From positions 1-64,000 of the forward strand of contig NZ_FNBC01000003.1 of NCBI RefSeq assembly GCF_900102145.1: 64,000 bases of DNA, in the 5' to 3' direction. Position 1 is the first letter of the stretch, and every line of letters starts with the position of its first letter. The position numbers and the translations under genes are program-made. The stretch comes from Thermus arciformis. GTDB lineage: Bacteria; Deinococcota; Deinococci; Deinococcales; Thermaceae. The notes beneath the pieces were generated by a model. The model made no database searches and was not told where the DNA came from. It worked only from the letters and a program-made list of their open reading frames with translations. Shown here one piece after another: positions 44,278 through 60,884 of the stretch.

Positions 44278-45633
44278 TCAAGGGGTGGGGGCCAGGGCCA
44301 GGTAGGCCAGGGCCCGCCCCGCCGCCTTCCTCCCGGAGCGCACCACCTCGGGAAGCCCCACCCCTTCCAGGTAGTTCCCCGCCAGGAAGAGGCCGGGGGC
44401 CTTGAGGAGGGCCATCTCCAGGCGCTCCACCCGCTCCAGGTGGCCCACCCGGTAGGCGGGCATCCCCTCGGGGAAACGGAAGGCGAAGGTGTGGCTTGGG
44501 CGCACCTCCCGGCCCAGGAAGCGCCTCAGGTCCTCCAGGGCCAGGCGGGCCAGGTCCATCTCCGAGCGCCGGGCCACCTCCCCCGAGAAGTAGGCCCGGA
44601 CCAGGCTCCACCCCTCGGGGGCCCGGCCCGGCCACTTGTTGTGGACCCAGGTGAAGCCCCGCACCCGGTACCCTTCCCCCTGGGCCGGGAGGAGGCCGTG
44701 GCCCGAGACGGGAAGCGCCTCGGGGAAGGCCAGGCTCACCGTGGCCGCGGGGCTGTGGGGGATGCCCTTGAGGAGGGCCGTGGCCTCGGGGAGGAAGGGT
44801 CTGAGGAGGGCGGCCGCCTGGGGGGCGGGGGTGGCCAGGATGAGGGCCTCGGCCTCGAGGCTTCCCCTTGGGGTGTGGAGGCGGAAGCGGCTTCCCGCAG
44901 GCTCCAGCCCCAGGACCGGGGTGGCCAGCAAGACCCTTTCCCCCAAGGCCTCGGCCAATCTCTTGGTGAGGCTTCCCAGGCCCTCCGGGAAGGAGAAGAA
45001 GAGGCTTCCCCCCTCCCGGCTTCCCCGCCCCTTGCGGGCCTTGAGGGCCCCCAAAAGGAGGCTTCGGTGCTTCTTTTCCAGCTCCAAGAGCTGGGGGAAG
45101 GCGGCTTTCATGGAAAGCTCGTCGGGCTCCCCCCCGTAGATCCCCCCGGCCAGGGGGGCCACCAGGGCCTGGTAGACCTCGAGGCCAAGCCGCCGCTCCA
45201 CGAAGGCCTTCAGGCCCTCGTCCTCCGTGGCCCCCCGGGGGAGGAAGAGGTCCCAAAGGGCGCGGAGCTTCCCGGGAAAGGAGAGGAGGGGGGTCTTGGC
45301 CAGGGCGCGGAGGTCCCCCGGGACCACCTGGAAAAGCCCCTCGGGCAAGGGGTGGGCCTTCCCCCGGCGGAGGATGTAGGCGGAAGGCTTGGCGGGGAGC
45401 GTCCCCACGGGCTCTAGGCCCAGGGCCTGGGCGAGCTCCAGCACCTCCTTTTTGTAGCGCACGCTGGCGTCGGGGCCTCCTTCCACCAGGAAGCCTTCTT
45501 GCTTCAGGGTCCGCACCTTGCCCCCGAGGCGGGGGCTTCCCTCCAGGAGGAGGAAGTCCACCCCCGCTTCCTTCAGGGCCAAGGCGGCGGCCAGCCCCGC
45601 CCACCCCCCGCCCACCACCGCTACCTCTGCCAC
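44278..45633 (-). CDS. hemY: Protoporphyrinogen/coproporphyrinogen oxidase, HemY type
   Basis: The FAD enzyme oxidises the porphyrinogen ring near the end of haem synthesis. The 451-residue protein has the N-terminal dinucleotide motif VVGGGWAGLAAA, LLLEGSPRLGGKVRT, the central GGIYGGEPDELSM and the C-terminal FLAGNYLEGVGLPEVVRSG, all typical of HemY/HemG-type oxidases. Whether it uses copro- or protoporphyrinogen cannot be told from motifs. GTG start overlaps the hemH 3' end by 13 nt. Last gene of hemE-hemH-hemY. Confidence 0.88.
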   Translation of the reverse strand: MAEVAVVGGGWAGLAAALALKEAGVDFLLLEGSPRLGGKVRTLKQEGFLVEGGPDASVRYKKEVLELAQALGLEPVGTLPAKPSAYILRRGKAHPLPEGLFQVVPGDLRALAKTPLLSFPGKLRALWDLFLPRGATEDEGLKAFVERRLGLEVYQALVAPLAGGIYGGEPDELSMKAAFPQLLELEKKHRSLLLGALKARKGRGSREGGSLFFSFPEGLGSLTKRLAEALGERVLLATPVLGLEPAGSRFRLHTPRGSLEAEALILATPAPQAAALLRPFLPEATALLKGIPHSPAATVSLAFPEALPVSGHGLLPAQGEGYRVRGFTWVHNKWPGRAPEGWSLVRAYFSGEVARRSEMDLARLALEDLRRFLGREVRPSHTFAFRFPEGMPAYRVGHLERVERLEMALLKAPGLFLAGNYLEGVGLPEVVRSGRKAAGRALAYLALAPTP

Positions 45634-46574
45634 GCCGCCTCCACCAGGTCCTTTAGGACCTGGATGTAGTCCAGATCGGCGTTCAGGCTCCGGGCCCGAA
45701 GGAGCCTCAGGCCCACTTCCTGGGCGGTGGCCTGGGCCTCGAGGTCCAGGTCGTAGAAGACCTCCAGGTGGTCCGCGGGGAAGCCCACCGCCTGGACCAC
45801 CGCCTCCTCGTGGCCCTCTTCCTTAAGCCTGCGCAGGAGCTCGTTGATGTCGGGGCCGAGCCAGGGCTCGGGGGTGCGCCCGGCCGACTGGTAGGCCACG
45901 TGGTAGCGGGGGAGGGCGAGCCTTTTGGCGATGAGCTCCGCCGTCTTCTCCACCTGCCTCGGGTAGGGGTCTCCCCGCTCCACCGCGGAGAGGGGGATGG
46001 AGTGGGCGGTGAAGACGTAGGCCGCCCGCTTGGGGTCCCTAAGGCGCCAGATGGCCTCCTCCAGCCTCCTGGCGTAGGCGGCGATGAGGCCGGGGTGGGC
46101 CTCGTAGCTTTCCACCCAGACGAAGGTTATGGGCTCGGGGAGGGCCTTTAGGGCCGCTTCCACCTTCTCTTGGTACTCGGCCACGCTCCTTAAGGAGTAG
46201 TGGGGGGCGGCCACCAGGGCCACCGCCCGCCTGACCCCGTCCTCGTGCATGGCGGCCACGGCCTCCCCGATGGTGGGGTGCCAGTGCTTGGTGCCCACGT
46301 AGACCCGGGCCGGGCCCTGGGGGGTGCGGGGCGGGAAGGGGCCCTGGAGGCGCTTGGGGTAGACGGGGGCCTCGAGGTTCAGGAGGGCCTGGAGCCGGAT
46401 GGCCTGGGCCAGGGTGATCTCGTTGAGGGGGCTTTTGCCGATGGCCTCGTAGCGGCCGGAAAGCTCGTGAAGGAGCTCCTCAGGGGGCTTCTTGCCCCGG
46501 CGGATGTCCGTGTAGTAGGGCTCTATCTCCTCTGGGGCGTAGGGGGTGCCGTAGGCCATCAAGAGGACGTTCAT
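45621..46574 (-). CDS. hemH: Ferrochelatase
   Basis: HemH inserts Fe2+ into the porphyrin. The 317-residue protein starts NVLLMAYGTPYAPEEIEPYYTDIRRG and has the conserved GTKHWHPTIGEAV, the catalytic histidine in FTAHSIP and YHVAYQSAGRTPEPWLGPDI, all family hallmarks. It is overlapped by hemE (ATGA) and overlaps hemY, so the three enzymes are translated in step. Confidence 0.95.
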   Translation of the reverse strand: MNVLLMAYGTPYAPEEIEPYYTDIRRGKKPPEELLHELSGRYEAIGKSPLNEITLAQAIRLQALLNLEAPVYPKRLQGPFPPRTPQGPARVYVGTKHWHPTIGEAVAAMHEDGVRRAVALVAAPHYSLRSVAEYQEKVEAALKALPEPITFVWVESYEAHPGLIAAYARRLEEAIWRLRDPKRAAYVFTAHSIPLSAVERGDPYPRQVEKTAELIAKRLALPRYHVAYQSAGRTPEPWLGPDINELLRRLKEEGHEEAVVQAVGFPADHLEVFYDLDLEAQATAQEVGLRLLRARSLNADLDYIQVLKDLVEAAWQR

Positions 46575-47587
46575 GCGCTCGCCTCCCTCACGAGTTCTAC
46601 CACATACCGCACGTTTTCCACCGGGGTCTTGGGCAGGATCCCGTGGCCCAGGTTGAAGATGTGCCCGGGCCTCCCGGCGTTTTCCTCCAGGATGCGCCGC
46701 ACCTCCCGCCGGATCACCTCCTTGGGGGCGAAGAGGACCACGGGGTCCAGGTTCCCCTGGACGGGGGTCTTCCCCAGGAGTTCCCGGGCCCAGGGGAGGG
46801 GGGTGTGGTGGTCCAGGCCCAGGACGTCCCCCCCGGCCTCCCGCATGTCCGAAAGAAGCCCCATGGTCCCCACGCCGAAGTGGATCACCGGGACGCCCAG
46901 GGGCTTGAGGGCCCGGAAGAGCCTTTCCATGTGGGGCTTCACGTAGCGGCGGTAGTCGGCGGGGGAGAGGGCCCCCACCCAGGAGTCAAAGACCTGGAGG
47001 AGGTCGGCCCCCGCCTCCGCCTGGGCCTTCAGGTAGCGGGCCATGGCCTCGGTGAGCTTCTCCATGAGGCGGTGCCAGAGGGCTTCCTCCCGGTACATGA
47101 AGGCCTTCACCTCCAGGAAGTGGCGGCTCGGCCCCCCCTCCACGAGGTAGCTCGCCAGGGTGAAGGGGGCCCCGGCGAAGCCGATGAGGGGGACCTCAAG
47201 CTCCCGTTTCAGGAGGCGGATGGTCTCCAGCACGAAGGGCACCGCCTCCTCGGGCTTTAGGGGCCTTAAGGCCTCCACGCCCCTTGCGTCCCGGATGGGG
47301 CGGTGGATCACGGGCCCCTTGCCCTCCACCAGGTCCAGGTCCACCCCCATGCCGTAGAGGGGGGTGGTGATGTCGGCGAAGAGGATGGCGGCGTCCACCC
47401 CCAGCTGCCGCACGGGCAGAAGGGTGACTTCGGCGCAGACCTCGGGGGTGCGCACGATCTCGGGAAGGGTGTAGCGTTCGCGGATCTCCCGGTACTCCCT
47501 CTGGTAGCGCCCCGCCTGGCGCATGAACCAGACGGGGGGCCTGGGGGTGGGCTCTCCCCGGGCCGCCTTCAGGATGAGGTCGTTCAC
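46571..47587 (-). CDS. hemE: Uroporphyrinogen decarboxylase
   Basis: HemE removes four acetate carboxyls from uroporphyrinogen III. The protein shows PVWFMRQAGRYQ, FADITTPLYGMGVDLD, GFAGAPFTLASYLVEGG and GNLDPVVLF, all characteristic. I chose GTG 47587 (338 residues, NDLILKAARGE start, usual for HemE) because a minus-strand TAGCAT lies 7 nt before it. The upstream ATG 47596 lies inside the overlapping divergent -10 region. First gene of hemE-hemH-hemY. Confidence 0.93.
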   Translation of the reverse strand: MNDLILKAARGEPTPRPPVWFMRQAGRYQREYREIRERYTLPEIVRTPEVCAEVTLLPVRQLGVDAAILFADITTPLYGMGVDLDLVEGKGPVIHRPIRDARGVEALRPLKPEEAVPFVLETIRLLKRELEVPLIGFAGAPFTLASYLVEGGPSRHFLEVKAFMYREEALWHRLMEKLTEAMARYLKAQAEAGADLLQVFDSWVGALSPADYRRYVKPHMERLFRALKPLGVPVIHFGVGTMGLLSDMREAGGDVLGLDHHTPLPWARELLGKTPVQGNLDPVVLFAPKEVIRREVRRILEENAGRPGHIFNLGHGILPKTPVENVRYVVELVREASA

Positions 47588-47594
47588 GCCCTTC

Positions 47595-47604
47595 ATGCTA
47601 GCAT
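47595..47604. promoter_or_regulatory. Overlapping divergent -10 elements, hemE / ppiC
   Basis: ATGCTAGCAT reads TAGCAT on both strands, with the central TA at 47599-47600 shared. It lies 7 nt before the hemE GTG and 5 nt before the ppiC ATG. Confidence 0.6.
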
Positions 47605-47609
47605 GGGGC

Positions 47610-48527
47610 ATGCGCGCCTTTTTTCTCGCCCTGGCCCTAGGCCTTCTCCCCTTGGCCCTGGCCCAGGAAGACCCCGTGGTGGCCCAGGTGGGGGAGGAGG
47701 CCCTCACCAAGGGCCAGTTTGAGCTCCGCTTCGGCCTCTTCGCCAAAAGCGCCCTGAGGCAGCTCGGCCTCCCCGACACGGAGGAGACCCGGGCCCTCCT
47801 CGCCACCTACCGCGCCCCCTACCTCGAGGCCCTGGCGGAGGAGCGGGCGCTTTTGCAGGTGGCTCGGGCTAAAGGCTTCTTTCCCCTGCCGGACAGCGTG
47901 GAGGCCCGGGTGGAGGGCCTAAAAGGGGCCTTCCCCGAGGAGAAGGCCCTGGAAGAGGCCCTGCGGGAGGCCGGGGTGCCGGACCTTGCGGCCTACCGCG
48001 TCCTCCTCGCCGAGGCCATGGCCCTGGAGGCCCTCGAGGCCCACTACCGGGAGCGGCTTGCCGTCTCCCCGGCAGCCCTAAAGGCCCTCTGGCTCCTCTC
48101 CCCGGAGTACCGCCACCCTACCCTCTATTGCGCCCGGCACATCCTCCTGCCCACCCTGGAGGCGGCCAAGGAGGCCCTGGCCCGCCTGGAGCGGGGGGAG
48201 GCCTTCTCCGAGGTGGCCCAGGCCCTCTCCCAGGACCCGGGCTCCAAGGAGGCCGGGGGGGATCTGGGGTGCGCCCCCGAGGGCACCTACATTCCCGCCT
48301 TTGAGCGGGCCCTCCTCGCCCTGAGGCCCGGGGAGGTCTCTTCCCCGGTGGGCACGGAGTACGGCTTCCACCTCATCCTCCTGGAGAGGGTGGTCCCCCC
48401 GGGCCGCTACCCCCTGGAGGAGGTGCGCCAGGACCTGGAGGACCAGGTGAAGGGGCGGGCCTGGGAGAAGCTCGCCAGGGCCCTGATCCGCGGGGTGCCC
48501 ATCCGGCTTTTCCCCGAAAGGCTATAG
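47610..48527 (+). CDS. Exported peptidyl-prolyl isomerase, PpiC/SurA type
   Basis: The 305-residue protein has a signal peptide (RAFFLALALGLLPLALAQ), an N-terminal chaperone-like helical region (about 25-165) and a parvulin domain (about 170-275) with RHILLPTLEAAKEAL, LSQDPGSKEAGGDLG and VGTEYGFHLILLE. It likely assists folding of exported proteins. I chose ATG 47610, which gives the signal peptide and follows TAGCAT; the longer upstream frame overlaps hemE. Its stop and that of the convergent nitrilase gene form CTATAG. Confidence 0.88.
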   Translation: MRAFFLALALGLLPLALAQEDPVVAQVGEEALTKGQFELRFGLFAKSALRQLGLPDTEETRALLATYRAPYLEALAEERALLQVARAKGFFPLPDSVEARVEGLKGAFPEEKALEEALREAGVPDLAAYRVLLAEAMALEALEAHYRERLAVSPAALKALWLLSPEYRHPTLYCARHILLPTLEAAKEALARLERGEAFSEVAQALSQDPGSKEAGGDLGCAPEGTYIPAFERALLALRPGEVSSPVGTEYGFHLILLERVVPPGRYPLEEVRQDLEDQVKGRAWEKLARALIRGVPIRLFPERL

Positions 48528-59739: not shown

Positions 59740-60426
59740 TCAGTCCGCTTCCAGAACCAGCTTGGGCCGGAAGCGGAGGGCGTCCGCCGCCACCAGGTGG
59801 AGGGGGATGCCCTGGTAGCTTTGCGGCAGTTTGGCAGGGTCGGCCCCGTGGAGGTGGCCGTAGACGATGGCCTGGGGGTGGGCCCCGGCGGCGAGCTCCA
59901 AAAGGGGCGAGGCCTCTCCGCTTGGCCCAAAGGGGGGAAAGTGGAAGGCCACCACCAGGTGGCGGTGGGGCTTTCCCTCCAGAGACTTCAGGGAGAGCTT
60001 TAGCCGCTCCACTTCCCGGGCCAGGATCCTTTCGTCCTCGAGGGTCTCCGGGGGGTACTGCCAGCCCCGGGTCCCCGCCACCGCCACCCCCTCCAGGACC
60101 AAGGCGTCGTTCTGCAGGGCGTACATGCCCTCGGGAAGGACGGCGCGAAGCCTGGAGATGGAGGGCCACCAGTAGTCGTGGTTCCCCTTAAGGAGCACCT
60201 TCTTCCCGGGGAGGGCCCCTAGGTCCAGGAGGTCGGGGAGGGCCTCGGAAAGGCGCATGGCCCAGGAGATGTCCCCGGCCACGATCACCAGGTCCGAGGG
60301 CCCCACCACCTCCCGCCAGCCGCGGAAGAAGGCCTCGGGGTGGCCCTGCCAGCCGGGGCCGAAGATGGTCATGGGCTTGGGGTGGGCGCGGGAGAGGTGG
60401 GGGTCGGCGATGGCGAAGACCCGCAT
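59740..60426 (-). CDS. Metallophosphoesterase
   Basis: The 228-residue protein is a calcineurin-like phosphoesterase with all metal motifs in order: IADPHLS, IVAGDISW, LKGNHDYWW, VVAFHFPPF and VYGHLHG. It should hydrolyse a phosphomonoester or phosphodiester with two metals; the substrate is unknown. The ATG is 7 nt after TACGCT, which overlaps head to head with the recX -10. Downstream on the same strand follow the 34-residue ORF, RAM and CPBP genes. Confidence 0.87.
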   Translation of the reverse strand: MRVFAIADPHLSRAHPKPMTIFGPGWQGHPEAFFRGWREVVGPSDLVIVAGDISWAMRLSEALPDLLDLGALPGKKVLLKGNHDYWWPSISRLRAVLPEGMYALQNDALVLEGVAVAGTRGWQYPPETLEDERILAREVERLKLSLKSLEGKPHRHLVVAFHFPPFGPSGEASPLLELAAGAHPQAIVYGHLHGADPAKLPQSYQGIPLHLVAADALRFRPKLVLEAD

Positions 60427-60433
60427 GGGCCAT

Positions 60434-60443
60434 AGCGTACCCT
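60434..60443. promoter_or_regulatory. Overlapping divergent -10 elements, phosphoesterase / recX
   Basis: AGCGTACCCT reads TACGCT on the minus strand and TACCCT on the plus strand, sharing the TA at 60438-60439. The spacing is 7 nt to the phosphoesterase ATG and 6 nt to the recX ATG. Confidence 0.6.
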
Positions 60444-60449
60444 AAACCC

Positions 60450-60884
60450 ATGGACAAGGCCGAGGCCTTCGCCTACGCCCTTCGCCTCCTCTCCCGGCGG
60501 GCCATGAGCCGGGCCCGCCTTAAGGAAAAGCTCCTGGAGCGTTTCCCCGAGGCCGAGGTGGACCAGGCCCTGGAGCGCCTTTCGGCCCTGGGCTACCTGG
60601 ACGACCGGGCCTTCGCGGAGACCTTCGTGGCCCTTCGGCGCAAGTACGGGCCCCGGAAGCTCCGCCACCTCCTCAGGGCCCAAGGGGTGGGGGAGGAGGT
60701 GGTGGAGGCGGTCCTTAGGGAGGTGGGGGAGGAGGAGGTCCTCGAGGCCGCCCTACGGGCCCTTCGCCGCTACCCCCGGCGCCAGGACAAGGCCAAGGCG
60801 GTGCGGTTTTTGCTGGGGCGGGGCTTCCCCCTCGCCGTGGCCCTCCAGGCCTACGAGCTTGCCAAGGAGGAGGAAAAGGGGTAA
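60450..60884 (+). CDS. recX: Regulatory protein RecX
   Basis: RecX binds RecA filaments and limits their activity. The 144-residue protein shows three-helix RecX repeats, starting AFAYALRLLSRRAMSRARLKEKL and then LSALGYLDDRAFAETFVALRR with KYGPRKLRHLLRAQGV, the usual signatures. recA is not in this window. Leaderless from the shared divergent -10 element. A short gap leads to the SRPBCC gene. Confidence 0.92.
   Translation: MDKAEAFAYALRLLSRRAMSRARLKEKLLERFPEAEVDQALERLSALGYLDDRAFAETFVALRRKYGPRKLRHLLRAQGVGEEVVEAVLREVGEEEVLEAALRALRRYPRRQDKAKAVRFLLGRGFPLAVALQAYELAKEEEKG

Follow-up and report, generated by a model that had tools for sequence, protein, structure and literature searches.

The closest described relatives of the arrangement considered here are the bidirectional promoters of Escherichia coli and Salmonella (PMC12825309, PMC10268837), in which -10 elements on opposite strands overlap by virtue of the symmetry of the -10 sequence. 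In E. coli the two start sites of such promoters are most commonly 18 bp apart, with distances of 10 and 23 bp also common (PMC12825309). In all five of the E. coli bidirectional promoters that were tested, the basal activity was too low for an effect of one direction on the other (Warman et al. 2026, PMC12825309), although repression of one direction can follow when the opposite one is strongly activated. A second relevant class is that of the leaderless genes of Deinococcus-Thermus (Zheng 2011, PMC3160421; Zhong 2025, PMC12340547), which carry a -10 element of the form TANNNT 6-7 nt before an ATG or GTG and have no ribosome-binding site; in Deinococcus, a gap that is too short leads to aberrant expression (Zhong et al., PMC12340547). 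A word search of these two papers, part of a literature search that covered open-access sources, found no mention of divergent or bidirectional use. Finally, in the divergent lysG/lysE pair of Mycobacterium tuberculosis the promoters of the two genes overlap, and there is a transcript that is leaderless (PMC5648196).

The locus lies between hemE and ppiC in a stretch of 64,000 nt from Thermus arciformis, called the window. At its center is ATGCTAGCAT, a perfect palindrome of 10 bp (47595-47604) that occurs once in the window, where dinucleotide-preserving shuffles give an expectation of 0.01. The palindrome reads TAGCAT on both strands, and the two head-to-head -10 elements so formed have a single TA step in common (T47599 and A47600; Table 1). 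The sequence bears out the original prediction, whose coordinates and spacings were correct throughout: the element stands 7 nt before GTG 47587, the proposed start of hemE, and 5 nt before ATG 47610, the start of ppiC. The prediction made no mention of the extended -10 TG found on each strand, nor of the ATG codons that lie inside the element in the frame of each gene (47596 on the minus strand, 47595 on the plus strand). TAGCAT matches TATAAT at four of six positions. Inspection by eye found no match to a -35 element on either side, and no GGAG-type Shine-Dalgarno sequence suitably spaced from GTG 47587 or from ATG 47610.

Table 1. Positions in the window of the shared element, the genes on either side of it, and a second pair of the same layout.
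Feature	Position	Strand	Remarks
-10 element of ppiC, TAGCAT	47599..47604	+	TA common with opposite element; in 25/25 aligned Thermus species
-10 element of hemE, TAGCAT	47595..47600	-	TACCAT in three species
Extended -10 TG, ppiC promoter	47596..47597	+	Invariant in 25 species
Extended -10 TG, hemE promoter (TGC-TAGCAT)	47602..47603	-	Invariant in 25 species
GGGGC spacer/discriminator, -10 to ppiC ATG	47605..47609	+	Invariant in 25 aligned species and L027
7-nt spacer (GAAGGGC) before hemE GTG	47588..47594	-	Fixed length, variable sequence
ppiC-type secreted peptidyl-prolyl isomerase, ATG start, predicted leaderless	47610..48527	+	PF00639
hemE, uroporphyrinogen decarboxylase, GTG start, predicted leaderless	46571..47587	-	TIGR01464, PF01208
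hemH (ferrochelatase)	45621..46574	-	PF00762; overlaps hemE stop; second gene of predicted hemE operon
Protoporphyrinogen oxidase gene	44278..45633	-	TIGR00562 above its cut-off; third gene of predicted hemE operon
Second shared-TA leaderless pair	60424..60452	.	Phosphoesterase-like (-, ATG 60426) / recX (+, ATG 60450); spacers 7 and 6

It is probable, judging from the comparisons given below, that ATGCTAGCAT acts as a sigma-A bidirectional promoter driving leaderless mRNAs of both hemE and ppiC. RNA polymerase would load on it in either orientation. Leftward transcription would start at GTG 47587 or immediately beside it, giving a leaderless mRNA of hemE, hemH, and the protoporphyrinogen oxidase gene; rightward transcription would start at ATG 47610 or immediately beside it, giving a leaderless ppiC mRNA. 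Transcription from both sides, the exact start sites, and leaderless translation are what I infer from sequence. In keeping with the definition used by Warman and Grainger, the locus has -10 elements on opposite strands with base pairs in common. The predicted start sites, 47587 and 47610, are 23 bp apart, which falls in the range of 7-25 bp that this definition sets for divergent starts and is one of the common distances in E. coli, and steric exclusion is expected here as it is in that class. If transcription starts 12 nt after the first T, then displacements of 1 and 6 between the TA steps of the two elements correspond to predicted start distances of 23 and 18 bp, respectively. Unlike the promoters of E. 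coli and Salmonella, that of hemE and ppiC is proposed from sequence comparison and is predicted to give transcripts that are leaderless and protein-coding, and since both would be leaderless, the promoter would make up the whole intergenic region, 22 bp between start codons. The M. tuberculosis pair differs from this in having a 108-bp intergenic region, a LysR-type regulator with an inverted repeat, and -35 elements, and lysE there owes its leaderless transcript to a separate, second promoter (PMC5648196).

The claim that the two genes cannot be transcribed at the same moment is sound in the steric sense, because one -10 element holds one polymerase and two polymerases cannot occupy it together. 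Beyond that sense, mutual interference between hemE and ppiC is possible as a side effect of the sharing.

To what extent does each side of the locus resemble leaderless genes of Thermus? Genes were called with purpose-written scripts in a closed Thermus genome of 2.4 Mb (G007). Upstream of the predicted starts, TANNNT peaks sharply at 6 nt (277 genes) and 7 nt (133 genes) and falls off the peak to about 5-35 genes per spacing, matching the placement of the -10 near the start of the open reading frame described for Deinococcus-Thermus (PMC12340547, PMC3160421). ATG and GTG are both common at the leaderless starts of this genome. Its spacers are rich in G and carry a C just ahead of the start codon, a pattern that fits the TAGCAT-GGGGC-ATG of ppiC, where GGGGC abuts the ATG directly. 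The hemE element stands within the distance of about 6-7 nt from the start codon that marks leaderless genes. The gap before ppiC is shorter than is typical of such genes in Deinococcus-Thermus, and 5-nt spacings are rare in G007 (about 20-22 of ~2,450 genes), below the optimum of 6-7 nt. The placement of the hemE element fits the leaderless start proposed for that gene, and that of the ppiC element, with its gap off the optimum, may allow one. TAGCAT itself accounts for 4.6% of the leaderless -10 elements at spacings of 6-7 nt in G007 (19/410), versus 1.07% of all TANNNT (p = 1.6e-7). Because TAGCAT is enriched among leaderless -10 elements and the site is nearly invariant across the genus, the occurrence at 47595-47604 exceeds chance by these sequence measures.

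The plus strand from ATG 47610 reads MRAFFLALALG..., a signal-peptide-like start, with the PpiC rotamase domain at residues 184-259. At its far end, ppiC overlaps tail-to-tail by 6 bp (48522-48527) with a minus-strand gene for a carbon-nitrogen hydrolase. On the minus strand (44278-47587), hemE and the genes for ferrochelatase and protoporphyrinogen oxidase have overlapping ends, and the three have the appearance of a single leaderless operon for late steps of haem synthesis.

The gene hemE was found in all 27 genomes of the genus, at ~86-100% identity. A gap-free alignment of 25 Thermus species shows 19 of the 20 bases of 47595-47614 to be invariant; the sole variable base, 47598, is C or G, and with either base both strands retain TANNNT and TG. 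Overlapping coding constraint could account for part of this conservation. Two lineages have the elements split. In an outlying Thermus (L027), CATCCTACCCTAGGGTGGTAGGATGGGGCATG contains two separate copies of TAGGAT, one placed 7 nt ahead of the hemE GTG and one 5 nt ahead of the ATG of ppiC. The sister genus (L030; HemE ~80% and PpiC 51% identical) again has separate elements, TAGAAT 8 nt before the GTG and TAGGCT 6 nt before the ATG. The spacing is otherwise fixed, at 7 nt for hemE in all Thermus and at 5 nt for ppiC in Thermus including L027. In-frame stop codons lie just upstream of both starts in L030 (TGA for hemE, TAG for ppiC), and the GTG and ATG are therefore the sole usable starts in that genome. 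One further genome, G005 (L017), has a deletion of about two thirds of ppiC that joins the element to the interior of the gene; its plus element has become TAGCAG, and the hemE side (TGCTAGCAT, 7 nt, GTG) is intact. No other close copy of ppiC was found in G005, and the deletion may be an assembly error. A wider scan of contigs gave mostly distant HemE relatives and one Thermus record, Thermus sp. JCM 17653, with 89% identity.

In a tree built from four proteins, L027 is sister to the other Thermus with moderate support (91/59), and a single change separates the split and shared states; a tree of hemE by itself failed to place L027. A single ancestral fusion of split elements into the shared one appears likely from these sequences, rather than demonstrated, since the support in the tree is moderate.

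One alternative to the reading given above is that HemE starts at ATG 47596 (MKGV...) on a leadered transcript, with GTG as an internal valine codon. That ATG is present in 24 of the 25 aligned Thermus species, and annotation pipelines tend to favour ATG, yet it is ATA in L026, and an in-frame TGA occupies that place in the sister genus. The stretch between the two codons varies freely, codons 2 and 3 being K/E/G/D and G/D/L, while GTG 47587 is invariant across the 25 species. Read from the GTG, the minus strand gives VNDLILKAARGE..., and the TIGR01464 hemE match (425.6 bits) begins after it, at residue 5; moreover, the bases of the ATG belong to the -10 element. A PDB search turned up HemE relatives only, with no Thermus N-terminus. 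I regard a start at ATG 47596 as very improbable. HemE most likely begins at GTG 47587, because the upstream ATG is replaced by ATA in one species and the sister genus has an in-frame stop upstream, and the correction of the hemE start put forward in the original prediction is well supported.

Granted that start, the promoter might still serve hemE only, the plus-strand TAGCAT being an accidental mirror of the functional element and ppiC being expressed with a leader from a promoter inside hemE. The 5-nt gap lies outside the optimum, as already seen, and mirrors are cheap: TA reads the same on both strands, so that just one extra A, which is present in 10% of codirectional leaderless promoters, completes a mirror TANNNT. 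What makes an accident unlikely is that conservation is stronger on the plus side, TAGCATGGGGCATGCG being invariant in 25/25 aligned species where the hemE spacer varies. Both L027 and L030, moreover, retain on the plus strand a TANNNT, separate from the hemE element, ahead of that ATG, and ppiC has no Shine-Dalgarno sequence at a usable distance that would suit a leadered transcript. A perfect 10-bp dyad between two divergent genes also calls to mind an operator for a dimeric transcription factor, with the likeness to a -10 element incidental. I rejected this possibility, which is hardly credible, since some species (L010, L023, and L028, which have ATGGTAGCAT) have a broken dyad. The dyad is dismantled altogether in L027 and L030, while TANNNT and the distances to the starts are kept, and the same layout recurs with different sequences at many unrelated gene pairs.

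Those gene pairs bear on the bidirectional promoter in their own right. Displacements between TA steps were counted for in-frame leaderless candidates among the 307-340 divergent gene pairs of G007. Pairs with a shared TA (displacement 1) numbered 15 or 11 by two gene callers, 17 in their union, and those at displacement 6 numbered 9 or 8; other distances had about 0.7 pairs each. The 17 include pairs of unrelated genes such as uvrC/dipeptidase, ruvB/panB, ispD/bacA-uppP, cobT/phosphatase, and mazG/methylglyoxal-synthase-like, and these five were checked by family. Since a mirror element comes so cheaply, codirectional genes were taken as the control. A mirror A together with a mirror start codon at 6-7 nt was found at 27 of 254 divergent leaderless promoters versus 5 of 308 codirectional ones (p = 4e-6). 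When the core was swapped among TA, AT, CG, and GC, the matches numbered 21, 5, 8, and 11, respectively, and Markov genomes gave a mean of 3.4 as against the 21 observed.

The same excess appears when the 27 Thermus genomes are summed: the layout with spacers of 6 and 7 nt gave 247 matches versus 14 in a control read backwards, and that with two spacers of 6 nt gave 158 sites versus 1, both patterns leaving out hemE/ppiC itself (spacers 7 and 5). Among genomes from outside Thermus and the sister genus, the surplus over the backwards control is mostly gone. The window holds another such pair (Table 1), whose genes belong to the RecX family on the plus strand and are metallophosphoesterase-like on the minus strand, with the same element present in many other Thermus species. 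Going by these sequence counts, the hemE/ppiC site is one of a family, not unique. The original prediction had seen in it a built-in competition between haem synthesis and a periplasmic foldase; because the layout recurs in about 17 unrelated pairs of G007, a dedicated link between the two is not implied.

It is possible, although somewhat doubtful, that minimal leaderless bidirectional promoters form a class found throughout the Thermus genome, each with one shared TA giving rise to two protein-coding mRNAs whose start codons lie ~23 bp apart. Selection would maintain the class at many pairs in the genus, and the expression of the paired genes would be mutually dependent. Such a class would be of more interest than the hemE/ppiC site alone. 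Both bidirectional promoters and leaderless genes have been described before. Their fusion would be about the most compact divergent promoter possible, lacking leaders and with intergenic DNA amounting to one symmetric -10 element, so that the upstream promoter region of each gene falls within the first codons of the other. The shared-TA layout may also supply a rule by which the start codons of divergent genes can be corrected. If the predicted transcription is true, then Thermus would offer many natural pairs, along with relatives in which the elements are split, for gauging what a shared -10 element does to two mRNAs.
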